This document shows, one piece after another, positions 16,713 through 42,037 of a stretch of DNA of 64,000 nt. The notes under the pieces were generated by a model, which saw only the letters and a list, made by a program, of their open reading frames with translations, ran no database searches and was not told the DNA's origin. Numbering within the stretch: the first letter of the stretch is position 1; every line of letters begins with the position of its first letter. This DNA comes from Aureimonas sp. AU12. GTDB lineage: Bacteria; Pseudomonadota; Alphaproteobacteria; Rhizobiales; Rhizobiaceae. The position numbers and the translations under genes were made by a program. The stretch spans positions 1 through 64,000 of the forward strand of contig NZ_BBWH01000053.1 in assembly GCF_001463705.1 (NCBI RefSeq), in the 5' to 3' direction.

Positions 16713-16724
16713 GGCTCCGTTGCA
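16713..16724. repeat. IS6 terminal repeat used as IS1111 target
   Basis: GGCTCCGTTGCA is the outer 12 bases of the terminal inverted repeat of the local IS6-family elements (compare 22013 and the reverse of 22837-22848). It stops abruptly at the end of the IS1111-group element. The IS6 sequence resumes on the other side at about 18106 with AATTGCCGAACAGG. Confidence 0.75.
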
Positions 16725-16990
16725 TATGTGGAACGGCCCGGTTTGCAAGGTGATCGCCGCGTCAATCGCCGTCGGACGGTGCAGTCATATGTCCGGCCTG
16801 TGAGCGCGGTCCTGGACCGCTGGCCACGATGAGATCCGCAATGTTGATCGCCTGAATCAAACTGTCGCGCTCGTAGGCGCATTGCAACGGACGGTCTGAT
16901 CAACATCGAGGTGTCGCCCCTCGGGCTCATCACGCTTTGGCACCTTGCCTGGCTCCTCCCGGCGCCGAAGTGCCGGGAAGCTCGTTGTTC
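16725..16990 (-). ncRNA. Candidate seekRNA/bridge RNA region of copy A
   Basis: The right-end region of IS1111-group elements is known to encode the guide RNA of the transposase. Seen here: a 9-bp stem ATGTTGATC (16841-16849) with GATCAACAT (16898-16906) enclosing a loop; inside the loop TTGCAACGGA (16882-16891), which is the exact complement of TCCGTTGCAA in the target repeat; a 6-bp hairpin near 16805-16819; and a 7-bp stem TCCCGGC/GCCGGGA at 16957-16978. Copy B shows compensatory changes in both stems. RNA ends are not determined. Confidence 0.6.
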
Positions 16991-18022
16991 CTACGCAGCG
17001 GCCATCACCATCGGTGCCCGGTAGGTCCCACCCTTGACCAGAAGGGTCCAGATCGTACGGACCATCTTGTTGGCCAGGGCCACAGCTGCGACCTTGTAGG
17101 GCTTGCGGGCGATCAGGGAGACGACCCAGACCGGCAGCTTCACGCCGCGTTTGGCTTGTTTCAGGATCGATGTCGCGCCGACCACCAGAAGCGAACGCAG
17201 CTGCGCGTTGCCGCGTTTCGTGATGCCGCCGAGGCGCTCCTTGCCGCCGCTCGAGTGGGCGCTCGGCGTGATCCCGATCCAGGCCGCCAGGTCACGCCCG
17301 GTTCGGAACGCCCCGGGATCCTGGATCGCGGCCCGGACGCTCGCCGCGATGATCGGGCCGACTCCGGGAATGCTCGTCAAGCGTCGAGCCGTCTCGTCCT
17401 CCTTCATGGCCTTGACGATCTTCGTATCCAACGCCGCGATGTGGGACGACAATCGTTCGATCTGCTCGGCCATCTCCAGAAGGGACGCACGCGCTGCGGA
17501 TGGAAGGCGGGCGTCCGTCTCGTCGCGCAGGATGGCGATCAGCTTGTCGATGCTGGCCATGCCCGTTGCGGAAATGATGCCGAGCTCGGCCATGTGGGCC
17601 CGCATCGCGTTCGACGTCTGGGTTCGCTGACGCACGAACAGCTCTCGGGTCTTCAGGACCATGCAGGCGGCCTGCTCGTCCTGCGTCTTGATTGGCACGA
17701 AGCGCATGGTGGGTCGCGTCACCGCCTCGCAAATCGCCTCTGCATCGGCCGCATCGGTCTTGTTGCGCTTCACATGGGCTTTGACGTAGACCGCTGGCAT
17801 CATCCGCACCGTATGGCCGAACTCGCCGATCGCGTTGGCCCAATGATGTGCGCTGGCACAGGCCTCGAGCCCGACGAGACAGGGCTGGAGACCGCGAAAG
17901 AAGTCCAGCACTTGAGACCGCCGCAGCGTCTTCCGAACGATGACGCGGCCATCCTGCGTGATGGCGTGGACCTGGAAGACCGACTTGGCCAAGTCCAGAC
18001 CGATGGTGGTGATCGTCTCCAT
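16991..18022 (-). CDS. IS110/IS1111-type transposase, copy A
   Basis: 343 residues. The N-terminal DEDD RuvC-like domain has IGLDLAKS, GLEACASAHHWA and KTDAADAEAICEAV. The C-terminal Tnp20 domain has SIPGVGPIIAASVRAAI and the catalytic serine region SAHSSGGKERLGG. Such recombinases insert DNA using a guide RNA made from the element's own end. The frame is intact, so this copy could be active. It is about 95 percent like copy B by eye. Confidence 0.92.
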   Translation of the reverse strand: METITTIGLDLAKSVFQVHAITQDGRVIVRKTLRRSQVLDFFRGLQPCLVGLEACASAHHWANAIGEFGHTVRMMPAVYVKAHVKRNKTDAADAEAICEAVTRPTMRFVPIKTQDEQAACMVLKTRELFVRQRTQTSNAMRAHMAELGIISATGMASIDKLIAILRDETDARLPSAARASLLEMAEQIERLSSHIAALDTKIVKAMKEDETARRLTSIPGVGPIIAASVRAAIQDPGAFRTGRDLAAWIGITPSAHSSGGKERLGGITKRGNAQLRSLLVVGATSILKQAKRGVKLPVWVVSLIARKPYKVAAVALANKMVRTIWTLLVKGGTYRAPMVMAAA

Positions 18023-18105
18023 GGAGCGGGTCCTTCTGTCTCGTGGCGAGGGATCGCCACGATAGGCACCTTCGATGCCGCTTCGAAGGGCCGTTCCACA
18101 CCATC

Positions 18106-18184
18106 AAATTGCCGAACAGGCCACAATGATCCCGTTCTGTTCCAATTTCAGGCGACGAACACCTGAAACAGCCGCCCGATGAAG
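18106..18184 (+). mobile_element. IS6-family left-end remnant
   Basis: Carries the end of an IS6-type transposase gene (CCGTTCTGTTCCAATTTC then CGACGAACACCTGAAACAGC) seen complete at 22040-22100. Together with 16713-16724 it forms one IS6 end interrupted by IS1111 copy A. The inner part is lost at 18184, where a different IS6-type repeat begins. Confidence 0.7.
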
Positions 18185-22012: not shown

Positions 22013-22848
22013 GGCTCTGTTGCGAATAGCCCATCGGGCCGCAATGATCCCGTTCTGTTCCAATTTCACGCGACGAACACCTGAAACAGCCGTCCGATGA
22101 AGCGGGCCTCAGATCCGCCGGCGAGGCTGTCGACCATTGAGCGGAATTGCCCCTTCCGGAACATCCGCATCGTCTCGAACTTTGGAATAGCGTTGTGAGC
22201 CGTCTTCTGGGAGTGAAAGCCCCGTACCGGGCGGACCCGCTGCCTCAGCTTGCCGTGGTCGGATTCGAGGCGGTTGTTCAGGTGTTTCACCTGCCGGTGC
22301 TGGCAGGTCGCGACGAGCCGCCCTTCTCGCCGCAGCGAGGCGATCGCCTCGTTGTAGGCCGGGTTCTTGTCCGTCGAAATCACCGATGGCCGGTTGTGCG
22401 GCGACCGGTTCAAAGCCTTGATGAGGAAGCGTTTGGCAGCCTTCGTCGTTCTCTTCGGCGACAGCTGGAAGTCGAGCGTTTCGCCTCGGTCACCGATCGC
22501 GCGGTAGAGGTACATCCACTCACCCCGGACCTTCACATAGGTCTCGTCGACGTACCAGCTGCCGCTGTTGCGATCCCTGCACCACTGGACGCGTCGGTCG
22601 AGCTCGGGGGCGTAGTGCTGAACCCAGCGGTAGATCGTGGTGTGATCCACCGATAGGCCGCGCTCGGCCATCATCTCCTCAAGGTCACGGTAGCTCAGGG
22701 CGTAGCGGCAGTACCAGCGCATGCACAGGAGGATGATGTCGGGAGCGAAGTGCCGGCCCTTGAACGCCAAACTCACGCTCAAGCCCACGCTGTCCGCCGC
22801 TTTGAGAGCGACGAGCTCTCACTGCGATCTGGATTTTGCAACGGAGCC
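22013..22848 (-). mobile_element. Complete IS6-family element
   Basis: Terminal inverted repeats GGCTCTGTTGCGAA and, inverted at the right, GGCTCCGTTGCAAA delimit 836 bases containing one intact transposase gene. No 8-bp target duplication is seen (GCCGGAGC left, CTCTTGGG right), consistent with cointegrate-type movement or adjacent deletion. Confidence 0.85.
22066..22788 (-). CDS. IS6-family transposase
   Basis: 240 residues, full family length. The DDE catalytic domain is intact: WYVDETYVKVRGEW (first Asp), VISTDKNPAYNEAI (second Asp) and LNNRLESDHGKLRQRVRPVRGF with the glutamate. An N-terminal helix-turn-helix (YRDLEEMMAERGLSVDHTTIYRW) precedes it. The start is a GTG at 22788 or at 22776. 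Confidence 0.92.
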   Translation of the reverse strand: MGLSVSLAFKGRHFAPDIILLCMRWYCRYALSYRDLEEMMAERGLSVDHTTIYRWVQHYAPELDRRVQWCRDRNSGSWYVDETYVKVRGEWMYLYRAIGDRGETLDFQLSPKRTTKAAKRFLIKALNRSPHNRPSVISTDKNPAYNEAIASLRREGRLVATCQHRQVKHLNNRLESDHGKLRQRVRPVRGFHSQKTAHNAIPKFETMRMFRKGQFRSMVDSLAGGSEARFIGRLFQVFVA

Positions 22849-37174: not shown

Positions 37175-37197
37175 GGCGTCGAAATGGCTCTGTTGCA

Positions 37198-37463
37198 TAT
37201 GTGGAACGGCCCGGTTTGCAAGGTACGCGTCGCGTCAATCGCCGTCGGACGGTGCAGTCATATGTCCGGCCTGTGAGCGCGGTCCTGGACCGCTGGCCAC
37301 GATGAGATCCGCAACGTCGATCGCCTGAATCAAACTGTCGCGCTCGAAGGCGCATTGCAACAGACGGTCTGATCGACATCGAGGTGTCGCCCCTCGGGGT
37401 CATCACGCTTGGGCACCTTGCCTGGCTCCTCTCGGCGCCGAAGTGCCGAGAAGCTCTTTGTTC
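37198..37463 (-). ncRNA. Candidate seekRNA/bridge RNA region of copy B
   Basis: Same layout as copy A with informative differences. The closing stem is GTCGATC (37316-37322) with GATCGAC (37371-37377), both arms changed relative to copy A. The end stem is TCTCGGC (37430-37436) with GCCGAGA (37445-37451), again changed on both sides. The loop carries TTGCAACAGA (37355-37364), complementary to TCTGTTGCAA of its own target. Confidence 0.6.
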
Positions 37464-38495
37464 CTACGCAGCGGCCATCACCATCGGTGCCCGGTAGGTC
37501 CCGCCCTTGACCAGAAGGGCCCAGATCGTGCGAGCCATCTTGTTGGCCAGGGCCACAGCTGCGACCTTGTAAGGCTTGCGGGCCATCAGGGAGACGACCC
37601 AGGCCGGCAGCTTCACGCCGCGTTTGGCTTGTTTCAGGATCGATGTCGCGCCGACCACCAGAAGCGAGCGCAGCTGCGCGTTACCGCGCTTCGTGATGCC
37701 ACCGAGGCGCTCCTTGCCGCCGCTCGAGTGAGCGCTCGGCGTGATCCCGATCCAAGCTGCCAAGTCACGCCCGGTTCGGAAAGCCGCCGGATCCTGGATC
37801 GCGGCTCGGACGGTCGCCGCGATGATCGGGCCGACACCGGGAATGCTCGTCAGGCGACGAGCCGTTTCGTCCTCCTTCACGGCCTTGACGATCTTCGTGT
37901 CCAACGCCGCGATGCGGGACGACAGTCGTTCGATCTGCTCGGCCATTTCCAGAAGCGCCGCTCTCGCCGCGACTGGAAGACGGGTGTCCGCCTCGTCGCG
38001 CAGGATGGCGATCAGCTTATCGATGCTGGCCATGCCCGTCGCGGCGATGATGCCAAGCTCAGCCATGTGGGCCCGCATCGCGTTCGATGTCTGGGTTCGC
38101 TGACGCACGAACAGCTCTCGGGTCTTCAGGACCATGCAGGCGGCCTGCTCGTCCGGCGTCTTGATCGGTACGAAGCGCATCGTGGGTCGCGTCACCGCCT
38201 CGCAGATCGCCTCTGCATCCGCTGCATCGGTCTTGTTGCGCTTCACATAGGCTTTGACGTAGGCCGCCGGCATCATCCGCACCGTATGGCCGAACTGGCC
38301 GATCGCGTTGGCCCAGTGATGTGCGCTGGCACAGGCCTCGAGTCCGACGAGACAGGGCGCGAGACCGCGAAAGAAGTCCAGCACCTGAGACCGCCGCAGC
38401 GCCCTGCGGATGATGACGCGGCCATCCTGCGTGATGGCATGAACCTGGAGGACCGACTTGGCCAAGTCCAGACCGATGGTGGTGATCGTTTCCAT
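37464..38495 (-). CDS. IS110/IS1111-type transposase, copy B
   Basis: 343 residues, intact, with the same DEDD (IGLDLAKS, GLEACASAHHWA, KTDAADAEAI) and serine-containing Tnp20 motifs (SIPGVGPIIAATVRAAI, SAHSSGGKERLGG) as copy A. Substitutions against copy A are mostly conservative, so both may be functional and could act on each other's ends. Confidence 0.92.
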   Translation of the reverse strand: METITTIGLDLAKSVLQVHAITQDGRVIIRRALRRSQVLDFFRGLAPCLVGLEACASAHHWANAIGQFGHTVRMMPAAYVKAYVKRNKTDAADAEAICEAVTRPTMRFVPIKTPDEQAACMVLKTRELFVRQRTQTSNAMRAHMAELGIIAATGMASIDKLIAILRDEADTRLPVAARAALLEMAEQIERLSSRIAALDTKIVKAVKEDETARRLTSIPGVGPIIAATVRAAIQDPAAFRTGRDLAAWIGITPSAHSSGGKERLGGITKRGNAQLRSLLVVGATSILKQAKRGVKLPAWVVSLMARKPYKVAAVALANKMARTIWALLVKGGTYRAPMVMAAA

Positions 38496-39139
38496 GGAGC
38501 AGGTCCTTCTGTCTCGTGGCGAGGGATCACCACGATAGGCACCTTCGATGCCGCCTCGAAGGGCCGTTCCACACCATCAAAGATGCGAAGGCAGTGAGAG
38601 CCAGTGGCTCTGAAGACGGCGGACAGCGAGGGCTTGAGCATGAGTTTGGCGTTCAAGAGCCGACACTTCGCCTCCGACATCATCCTGCTTTGCATGCGCT
38701 GGTACTGCCGCTATGCGCTGAGTTATCGCGACCTCGAGGAGATGATGGCCGAGCTCGGCCTCTCGGTCGATCACACCACGATCTACCGCTGAGTCCAGCA
38801 CTATCCCCCGAGCTCGACCGACGCGTCCAGTGGTGCCGAGATCGCAACAGCGGCAGCTGGTACGTCGACGAAACCTACGTGAAGGTGCGTGGCGAATGGA
38901 TGTATCTCTATCGCGCGATCGGTGACCGCGGTGAGACGCTCGACTTCCAGCTATCGCAGAAACGGACGACAAATGCGGCCAAACGCTTCCTCGTCAGGCC
39001 TTTGAGCCGGTCGCCTCCCAACCGGCCCTTGGTGATCCCGACGGACAAGAACCCGCCATACGACGAGGCGATCGCCTCGTTGCGGCGAGAGGGGTGGCTC
39101 GCGGCGACCTGCCAGCACCGGCAGGTCAAATACCTGACG

Positions 39140-40632
39140 GATGTGTTTGAACAGTCCCTTTCTTCAGGCTGGCCTCCTTCTCGACTCTTAGGATGGTTTC
39201 GGTTTGGGTCGCGCACGCCAGTTGGCGACAAAGCGGCGGTACGCCTCCTCGACCTGCCCCATCATCTGTCGTTCAGCCTCTCTCACAGCCTTGAGGCTGT
39301 AGACGGCAGCCGATCCCTTGGGTTGGCCTCGGCGTGACGCCTGTCCCGCCGCGAGCTCAAGAGATCGCATCTTCCACGCCAGAAGCGCGGGACGGACCCA
39401 GGTGTAGTCCTGTCCTTTTGTCAGCATGTGCCAGATTACGACTGCCAGCTTGCGTGCTGTCGCAACCGCTGCGACGGGCTTGCTCTTCTTGGCAGCGATC
39501 CGGTGGAAGAACGCACGCAGCGGGCCTGGAATGCGCATCAGGCACCATGCAGCCTCGACCAGCATCGATCGGGCATGGCCCCGGCCTGCTTGCTGATCCG
39601 CCCATGATAGGCGGAATGGTCGCCTGACTGGCGAACCTTGGGGTTCAACCCAAAGGTGCTCACAAGCTTCTGGGGCGAGGAGAAGCGCGTGATGTCGCCG
39701 ATCGCCGCCATCACGCTCATAGCGACCATAACATCGATACCGGTGATCGTCATCAGCCGTCGCGCCTGAGGCTCCATCAAGGCCTGCTGAGCAAGAACCT
39801 TGTCCATGTCCGCAAGCTCGACGCCGAGGCGGTCGAGTTCTGCAGCGTGGCGCGTCACGCTCCGACGCTGATCCTCTTCGAGCGGCAAGGCTTCCAGCCA
39901 GGCGCGGCCACGCCGGGAGAACAGTTCGCCCTTGTAGGGGGCGATCAGCTGGGCGTGGAGGATCGACTGGATGCGGTTCTTCGCGCGCGTCATCTGCGCC
40001 ACGATCTGACCGCGCTCCGCGGTCTCTCGCCGGCGCCGCTCCGTCGCATCGTCCGGCATCCAGACCTCCGGAAGGAAACCACTGGCGTGAAGCCTGGCCA
40101 GGACCCGGGCGTCGATCTTGTCGGTCTTCACCTTGGCGTAGGCGATGGCCCGGACCTGGCGAGGGTTGGCGATGACGACGCGCGCGACATACGGCCTGAC
40201 AAGACGCACGATGGCACTGGTGTTGCCGGTCGCCTCCAGCACCACTTCGTCATCGGCTCGAAGCGTCTGTGCGAACTCAAGGAAGCGACTTCGTTCCAGA
40301 TCCACCCGTCCGCCGTCCTCTAGGACGTCGGCTTCCAGAATGGCCATTTGCGCGAAGGACCGATGAACGTCGAGAGCGATGATCCTCATCTCCAGCTCCT
40401 CATCCACGTTGAACATGCATGAGAGCTGGCGGGCCACACGACACTTACGGATCCGCGCTCACGGCGCACCTAGGCCAGTCGAAGGAGCAGCCAGATAACA
40501 ACACGAGCTCGCAGCTCAGAGGTACTTTCGGCCTGCCCACCTTCATGCTCCCGGCCTCCCCTTTCCCGGTTGCGATCAGCTTACGCCGGAGGCGACGCTG
40601 CGCAAGCGATGTCGGTGATGCCGCCGCCAGCA
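39140..40632 (-). mobile_element. Second IS110-type element
   Basis: About 1.49 kb inserted in the IS6 transposase between codons for QVKYL and NNRLE. Transposase gene leftward at 39188-40389. A 240-base non-coding stretch precedes the gene (40390-40632), as in the IS110 group proper, where the bridge RNA is encoded upstream. Exact ends not resolved. Confidence 0.65.
39188..40389 (-). pseudogene. IS110-family transposase, frameshifted
   Basis: Start at the ATG encoding MRIIALDVHRSFAQMAIL. DEDD residues visible in IALDVH, VVLEATGNTSAIV and VKTDKIDARVLARL. The C-terminal part TITGIDVMVAMSVMAAIG and LNPKVRQSGDHSAYHGRISK is in frame. The frame shifts near 39575, and SMLVEAAWCLMRIPGPLRAF...MLTKGQDYTW continues in another frame. 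Unrelated in detail to copies A and B. Confidence 0.82.
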
Positions 40633-40907
40633 TGCCCGATAACAACCGCCTCGAATATGACCACGGCAGGCTCAAGCAGCGGATCCGCCCCGTGCGTGGC
40701 TTCCAGTCGCAAAAGACAGCGCACAACGCCATTCGCGGCTTTGAGACGATGCGGTTGTTCTGGAAGGGCCAGTTCCGCTCGATGGTCGACAGCCTGGCCG
40801 GTGAATCGGAAGCTCGCTTCATCCGGCGGCTGTTTCAGGTGTTCGTCGTCTGAAAATGGAACTGATCGGGATCATTGTGGCCTGATCGGCCATTTGCAAC
40901 GGAGCCT

Positions 40908-41771
40908 GCCAGCGCACATCATTGGGCCAACGCGATCGGCCAGTTCGGCCATACGGTGCGGATGATGCCGGCGGCCTACGTCAAAGCCTATGTGAAGCGC
41001 AACAAGACCGATGCGGCGGATGCAGAGGCGATCTGCGAGGCGGCGACGCGACCCACGATGCGCTTCGTCCCGATCAAGACGCCAGACGAGCAAGCCGCCT
41101 GCATGGTCCTGAAGACCCGAGAGCTGTTCGTGCATCAGCGAACCCAGGCATCGAACGCGATTCGGGCCCACATGGCCGAGCTCGGGATCATCACCGCAAC
41201 GGGCATGGCCAGCATCGATAAGCTGACCGCCATCCTGCGCGACGAGGCGGACACCCGTCTTCCAGTCGCTGCGAGAGCAGCGCTTCTGGAAATGGCCGGA
41301 GATCGAAGGACAGTTGGCCCGCATCGAGGCGTTGGACACGAAGATCGTCAAGGCCGTGAAGGAAGACGAGACGGCTCGACGCCTGACGAGCATTCCCGGC
41401 GTAGGCCCGATCATCGCGGCGACCGTCCGAGCCGCGATCCAGGATCCGGCGGCCTTCCGAACCGAGCGTGATCTGGCGGCTTGGATCGGAATCACGCGAG
41501 CGCCCACTTGAGCGGCGGCAAGGAGCGCCTCGGTGGCATCACGAAGGGAGGCAAGACCCAGCTGCGCTCGCTTCTGGTGGTCGGTGCGACCTCGATCCTG
41601 AAACAGGCCAAACGCGGCGTGAGGCTGCCGGCCTGGGTTGTCTCCCTGATGGCCCGCAAGCCCTACAAGGTCGCAGCCGTGGCCTTGGCCAATAAGATGG
41701 CTCGCACGATCTGGGCTCTTCTGGTTAAGGGCGGAAGCTGCCGGGTACCGATGGTGACGGCCGCTGCGTAG
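40908..41771 (+). pseudogene. IS1111-type transposase copy C, truncated with frameshifts
   Basis: Begins at ASAHHWANAIGQFGHTVRMM and continues KTDAADAEAICEAA to LLEMAG near 41300. The frame then changes, IEALDTKIVKAVKEDETARR...LAAWIGIT follows, and a second change near 41505 leads to SGGKERLGGITKGGKTQLRS and the normal C-terminus. Missing the first catalytic aspartate. Not functional. Confidence 0.85.
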
Positions 41772-42037
41772 GAACAAAGAGCTTCTCGGCACATCGGCGC
41801 CGGGAGGAGCCAGGCAAGGTGCCCAAGCGTGATGACCCCGAGGGACGACAACTCGATGTCGATCAGACCGTCCGTTGCAATGCGCCTTCGAGCGCGACAG
41901 TTTGATTCACGCGATCGACATTGCGGATCTCATCGTGACCAGCGGTGCAGGACCGCGCTCACAGGCCGGACATATGACTGCACCGTCCGACGGCGATTGA
42001 CGCGGCAATTCCCTTGCAAACCAGCCCATTTCACGTA
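41772..42037 (+). ncRNA. Candidate seekRNA/bridge RNA region of copy C
   Basis: Retains the closing stem ATGTCGATC (41858-41866) with GATCGACAT (41915-41923), nine pairs, and the guide-like TCCGTTGCAA (41873-41882) in the loop. The transposase-proximal stem is weakened (CCCGGC facing GCCGAG). Possibly still transcribed, but its own transposase is broken. Confidence 0.45.

Follow-up and report, generated by a model that had tools for sequence, protein, structure and literature searches.

Elements of the IS110 family can find their insertion sites with an RNA of their own, a guide mechanism already established in 2024 (PMC11187229, PMC11208160). Siddiquee et al. demonstrated by experiment that elements of the IS1111 group use a programmable RNA, with natural redirection among relatives (PMC11187229). 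Siddiquee et al. 2024 set this group apart by its subterminal repeats and by the region downstream of the gene; the inverted repeats are perfect or near-perfect and usually 11-13 bp long, and the extensions beyond them are usually 7 bp on the left and 3 bp on the right, occasionally 6 and 3 (PMC11187229). Durrant et al. reported that IS110 RNAs covary with target and donor, and their predictions assigned a bridge RNA to 93.0% of IS1111 elements (PMC11208160).

Here we describe two elements, copies A and B, in a window of 64,000 nucleotides, the whole stretch of DNA analysed. Each very probably belongs to a bridge RNA (seekRNA) system whose top-strand guide matches that copy's own form of an IS6 end.

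Copies A and B are complete IS1111-group elements

Both elements lie on the minus strand, copy A at 16725..18106 and copy B at 37198..38579, the limits of the latter being taken from its subterminal inverted repeats together with a comparison to intact IS6 ends. Each is 1382 bp long, and the two align without gaps at 93.6% identity. Their transposases (16991..18022 and 37464..38495, minus strand; 343 aa each) are 94% identical and are of the DEDD type with a Transposase_20 C-terminal domain (Pfam Transposase_20 and DEDD_Tnp_IS110). The copy B protein scored 324.1 bits against the NCBIfam model NF033542, 'IS110 family RNA-guided transposase', whose cut-off is 140, and the G--P----SG motif is present as GITPSAHSSG. 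Membership of the TIGR-Tas systems was considered and rejected, the Tas protein model NF052498 reaching 35.3 bits, below its NCBIfam curated cut-off of 100.

As in the IS1111 group, the longer non-coding region lies downstream of the transposase gene (266 nt, versus 84 nt upstream as calculated from the coordinates). A perfect 13-bp subterminal inverted repeat, TGTGGAACGGCCC / GGGCCGTTCCACA, is present in copies A and B and in close relatives; at this length the extensions are 6 bp on the left and 2 bp on the right, or 7 and 3 if the repeat is taken as 12 bp. Read in element sense, copy B comprises the flank CATCTT, the left end TGATGGTGTGGAACGGCCC, the transposase gene, the right end GGGCCGTTCCACATA and the flank TGCAACAGAGCC, and copy A has the same ends between GCAATT and TGCAACGGAGCC. 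The TG at the junction is common to target and element, and its side is assigned by convention. We assign both copies to the IS1111 group of the IS110 family. Like ISEc11, ISKpn4, ISPa11 and ISPst6 (PMC11187229), they combine a DEDD transposase of 330-350 aa with subterminal repeats and a downstream non-coding region.

Two further features were observed in the vicinity. When the ends of copy B are joined (37198-37221 with 38576-38579), a promoter-like TTGCAA-16-TATGAT spans the putative circle junction; a junction promoter on a circular intermediate is among the traits of the IS1111 group. Between copy B and a third copy, C, a different IS110-family transposase frame occupies 39538-40437 on the minus strand and scored 180.6 bits against the NCBIfam IS110 RNA-guided transposase model (cut-off 140).

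Copies A and B lie in the ends of IS6-family elements

The sequences GGCTCCGTTGCA (16713-16724) and GGCTCTGTTGCA (37186-37197) directly adjoin the element ends. In element sense these right target halves read TGCAACGGAGCC for copy A (16713..16724, minus strand) and TGCAACAGAGCC for copy B (37186..37197, minus strand), both being IS6-family terminal repeats; the left target half of copy B is CATCTT (38580..38585, minus strand). Once joined, the flanks of copy A could be aligned without gaps to an intact IS6 right end in the same window (40837-40906), 64 of 70 bases being identical; those of copy B aligned with gaps to an intact IS6 left end and agreed with it in 58 of 71 columns. The opposite pairings of joined flanks and IS6 ends, which served as wrong-end controls, gave a lower 48/82 each, and copies A and B therefore sit in IS6 ends, one in each type of end. 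The same alignments reveal a specific target and no target duplication, as is characteristic of the IS1111 group.

The 14-base IS6 end also occurs without an insertion in this genome, in three exact copies of a form with G and two of a form with A. One IS6-family element that could serve as a target, its ends being uninterrupted, is found at 22013..22848 on the minus strand (transposase 22066-22788; NCBIfam NF033587). In these IS6 elements the outer repeat is common to both ends and the inner side differs.

Insertion into the terminal inverted repeats of other mobile elements is shared with IS4321 and IS5075, IS1111 elements whose targets, unlike those of copies A and B, are reportedly Tn21-family transposon repeats. 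Partridge and Hall reportedly wrote on IS4321 and IS5075 in 2003.

A putative guide matches the target of each copy

The sequence-only reading had proposed a guide-like decamer in each copy and had placed it correctly, TTGCAACGGA at 16882-16891 and TTGCAACAGA at 37355-37364. The RNA strand is read from the minus strand, so that the putative top-strand target guide of copy B (37355..37364) is UCUGUUGCAA and that of copy A (16882..16891) is UCCGUUGCAA; they match TGCAACAGA and TGCAACGGA, respectively, in 9 of 9 positions. The complementarity of nine to ten bases claimed in that reading is borne out, with nine bases inside the right flank and ten when one base across the junction is counted, as is the claim of a single target difference matched in the loop. 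The first 12 right-flank bases of the two copies differ at one position, the paired one: target position +7 is G in copy A and A in copy B, and the guide differs accordingly.

This agreement could in principle be coincidental, with one of the differences between the copies falling by chance on the paired base and the match of nine to ten bases reflecting a shared repeat word. The pattern TTGCAACRGA occurs six times in the window (mean 0.13 and maximum 1 in 100 shuffles). Copies A and B differ at 14 positions in the 266 nt after the stop codon, exactly one of which falls within the 10-nt guide. Taken by itself, the A/B pair is no more than suggestive, with a chance estimated at about 0.02 (14/266 x about 1/3), and it is in favour of coincidence that two copies and one base difference weigh little alone.

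Guide and target covary among relatives

Relatives were collected from GTDB genomes (best 80 of 302), from plasmids (662 matching records, of which 60 were listed and 12 taken), from 297 genomes of the same family, which yielded 40 further places, and by an RNA-motif search of 397 relatives, 25 of which had a match. Dropped from this material were 72 anchor hits lacking the right end found in copies A and B, mostly diverged elements and also copy C (L083, L195) and L172. In the aligned non-coding regions the RNA is largely conserved, and the place of the decamer varies, being in most cases the reverse complement of the element's own right flank. With a fixed anchor, the top-strand guide was readable in 48 of 58 element rows, the other 10 giving none. 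It matched the right flank at 9 of 9 positions in 19 of the 48 and at 8 or more in 38; the remaining 10 matched less well. For 27 distinct pairs, the mean match at the seven variable positions was 5.30, as compared with 2.91 after shuffling, and 0 of 20000 shuffles scored as high.

Collecting further insertions, as the earlier reading had advised, thus gave a decamer that predicts the flank in most readable rows. That reading had also held that loops and targets differing independently would count against a guide; such variation is not the rule, yet the 10 lower rows depart from agreement. In L115 the guide is one for TGAGTCAGA and the flank is TGCGTCAGA, a clear single-base disagreement at one of the variable positions. 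L121, apparently read one base out of register, was counted as a miss, as was L094, whose guide fits solely the flank TCACGGGTTG of a second right end 35 bp further on (element of 1431 bp). Some low matches come from wrong end assignment or decayed ends and some are unexplained, for example L007.

We further scanned every position of the 215-nt copy B RNA region against target positions -10 to +15 on both strands, using 400 shuffles. The scan comprised 57 rows, or 54 after dereplication, with L172 and L205 added by hand and the insecure left ends of L175 and L178 retained; L119 and L153, whose right end is 4 mismatches off, were kept out of the scan and the protein tree, L119 remaining in the guide-match counts. 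The 11 strongest cells all fell on two diagonals. On the first, at the decamer, the RNA is the complement of target +3 to +8; on the second it is identical with target -5 to -1. Target +1/+2 is nearly always TG, where no covariation is possible. Rows from related genomes are not independent; the shuffles keep this relatedness, and the z values of the scan are therefore not probabilities.

These results bear on three alternatives. Coincidence is exceedingly improbable, given that the aligned place matches different targets of its own in the relatives, at a level that no shuffle reached, and that the guide emerges from an unbiased scan. We give equally little credence to the decamer being a functionless captured fragment of IS6: it is identical to IS6 terminal sequence, as a captured piece would be, but relatives carry unlike sequences at the same place, matching other flanks, and the surrounding RNA structure is conserved. 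The specific form of this objection raised in the sequence-only reading, a captured IS6 piece outside the RNA, is excluded, since the place is inside a structured RNA that is kept in relatives at other targets. A third alternative, recognition of the target by the transposase protein with the RNA match arising afterwards, through gene conversion or through copying of the flank into the guide, is very unlikely. The evidence against it is indirect: the transposases of copies A and B are nearly the same, yet guides and targets differ, and ISEc11 and ISEc21 have been retargeted experimentally by altering guide and flanks jointly (PMC11187229). The comparison of sequences therefore supports the decamer as the probable guide for the top target strand within the bridge RNA (seekRNA) of this element. 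The original proposal that this segment would act as a guide agrees with the relatives, which differ at the aligned RNA place and each match their own, different flank.

The second diagonal identifies a candidate bottom-strand target guide, which, like the donor segment described below, was absent from the earlier reading. It is ACAGUU in both copies, at 37333..37338 in copy B, beside the core UG, and at 16860..16865 in copy A (both minus strand). Across the 27 pairs, the six bases before TG matched the left flank at a mean of 4.19 of 6 positions, as compared with 2.38 after shuffling (0/20000 as high), and in 23 of 32 rows four or more of the five nearest bases matched. The RNA thus holds segments matching both target strands, the top-strand match coming first as in IS1111. 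In copy A the second guide matches GCAATT at 4 of 6 positions. It fits copy B poorly, matching CATCTT at 2 of 6, which counts against our favoured explanation; this weaker fit may arise because the inner side of IS6 differs between its ends.

Conserved RNA structure and a donor segment

The guide RNA region of copy B, to the extent modelled in alignment A1, covers 37221..37386 on the minus strand and has a conserved structure. RNAalifold applied to 23 sequences gave 32 pairs, with 94.8% of cells paired and 13 pairs changed on both sides. None of 500 shuffles reached any of five measures, and slid controls paired in 25-38% of cells, a comparison in which the structure is favoured because it was derived from the tested alignment itself. 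Folded as a single sequence, the copy B region was no more stable than shuffles (z -0.42), and the structural claim consequently rests on the alignment. An Rfam gathering scan of the window returned 0 matches.

An outer stem (columns 6-17 with 71-82) holds the top-strand guide, a GCGC hairpin and the bottom-strand guide, in the order described for IS1111 seekRNAs (PMC11187229). A second domain, with GGCC/GGCC and GGAC...GTCC stems, carries the donor segment ACATATGA. In copy B this donor segment is ACAUAUGA (37258..37265, minus strand), which matches the element's own joined ends CCACATA-TGATGG (hyphen at the join) and whose counterpart in diverged relatives covaries with the right end and the core. 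Donor segment and right-end extension change together, core included: ACAGATG with ACAGA-TG, ACACACG with ACACA-CG and ACAGAAG with ACAGA-AG. Among 21 distinct rows (26 diverged loci, minus six near-repeats, plus one row from the window), 17 matched at 7 of 7 positions, the exceptions being L036 (5), L146 (4; repeats probably misassigned), L100 (6) and L131 (6). The mean of 6.67, as against 5.39 after shuffling (0/20000 as high), applies to the segment matching the right end only and to loci selected through an anchor overlapping the RNA segment under test, and hence with narrowed variation. The core dinucleotide at the right end of L022, L023, L031, L051, L150 and L161 is CG or AG and not TG, and the donor segment follows.

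Compared with the IS621 bridge RNA of the IS110 group (PMC11208160), this RNA is alike in having two target guides and a donor guide that covary, with the core dinucleotide in the pairing. It differs from IS621 in lying downstream of the gene, in the reversed order of its guides and in the long subterminal repeats of the element (PMC11208160). The core is TG here, or CG or AG in some relatives, versus CT in IS621 (PMC11208160).

IS6-end insertions in the genus

A survey of the genus covered 21 genomes, 5 with a match, and 13 places, seven of which are counted as IS6-end insertions with a readable guide and target. At +7, guide and target agree in all seven: A, B, C, L171, L172, L205 and L206. 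Guide form and target base are both A in L172 and both G in L171, L205, L206 and copy C, the last with a decayed flank. This 7/7 agreement has a chance of 1 in 21 and was not blind, having been prompted by A and B; four of the seven have decayed ends (C, L172, L205, L206), and L206 and C were read by eye. Outside the count were L199 and L200 (another target), L202 (right end not found) and L203, L207 and L208 (no readable pair), while L185 has an IS6-like right flank with its guide off the contig. The second guide is TGAYTT in L172 and L205 versus ACAGTT in A, B, C and L171, which suggests that both lines probably underwent the change at +7, in each case together with the target.

Copy C is a remnant (40907..42037, plus strand), its left side cut by an IS6 end and its right end decayed, with the putative top-strand guide TCCGTTGCAA at 41871..41880 on the plus strand. 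It had been called neutral in the earlier reading on account of its degraded flank. The flank is indeed degraded; copy C is nevertheless not wholly neutral, in that the decayed flank CGCAACGAAGCC keeps the guide-predicted G at the discriminating base. At 40893-40920 the IS6 right end TTTGCAACGGAGCC adjoins copy C within the transposase frame of that copy. An element of the targeted family thus seems in its turn to have cut an IS1111 copy.

Relatives at other targets

The guides of other relatives match TGAGTCAGA, TGAGGAAGA, TGAATCACA, TGGGGGCAA and further flanks. Among close relatives the commonest right flank is TGAGTCAGAGCC. In two plasmid insertions with this flank (L114, L122) PLSDB annotation shows an ISL3 transposase immediately beyond the left flank, and L124, which has no secure right end, has an ISL3 transposase neighbour too; from these neighbours we infer that TGAGTCAGAGCC is a candidate ISL3 terminal repeat. 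Read inward, this candidate and the IS6 repeat in its A form both start GGCTCTG, and their 9-nt guides differ at three bases, a distance that may make a switch between the two easy.

When target labels were placed on a protein tree of 33 rows, at least 12 label changes were counted. L194, L166 and L016 have very long branches, with wrong or partial frames suspected, and the tree is therefore used only to conclude that targets switch repeatedly. A search of titles and abstract beginnings in the open-licence literature found no prior description of IS1111 insertions in IS6 or ISL3 ends.

As in the seekRNA elements above (PMC11187229), the top-strand match lies 5' of the bottom-strand match and relatives are naturally redirected. 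Unlike them, the target here is the IS6 terminal repeat, relatives use other ends, some beside ISL3 genes, and the RNA is a predicted one.

Proposed mechanism and significance

The anatomy, RNA structure and covariation observed here allow us to propose a mechanism, in which transcription, binding, excision and the chemistry of insertion would proceed by analogy with the 2024 papers. The region after the transposase gene would encode the bridge RNA (seekRNA). Its top-strand guide is predicted to include the core dinucleotide TG and its bottom-strand guide to abut the core, and the later segment ACATATGA would pair with the element's own joined ends. Transposase and RNA would then recombine the circular element into a matching site at the core, giving insertion in a single orientation and without target duplication. 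The guide of copy A matches the IS6 terminal repeat in its G form and that of copy B the A form, and each copy sits in its own form.

A broader reading sees in the clade a parasite specialised on other insertion sequences. Its guide would be repeatedly rewritten toward the terminal repeats of IS families abundant in its hosts (IS6 and others, ISL3 probably among them), even tracking repeat variants that differ by one base, while the donor segment and core (TG, CG, AG) would evolve in concert with the end of the element itself. We offer this tentatively, as possible and somewhat doubtful.

What is new here is the element, its targets, a clade whose guides switch among mobile-element ends, and a single-base guide-target pair within one genome. 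Elements in the same genome with near-identical transposases and one matched guide/target base, and relatives at other sites, amount to a natural retargeting experiment. Series of this kind can reveal where in the guide changes are tolerated and by what route bridge RNAs come to be rewritten, which has a bearing on bridge RNAs as tools for DNA insertion. For genome biology, the finding draws attention to elements that lodge at the termini of other insertion sequences and may disable them.
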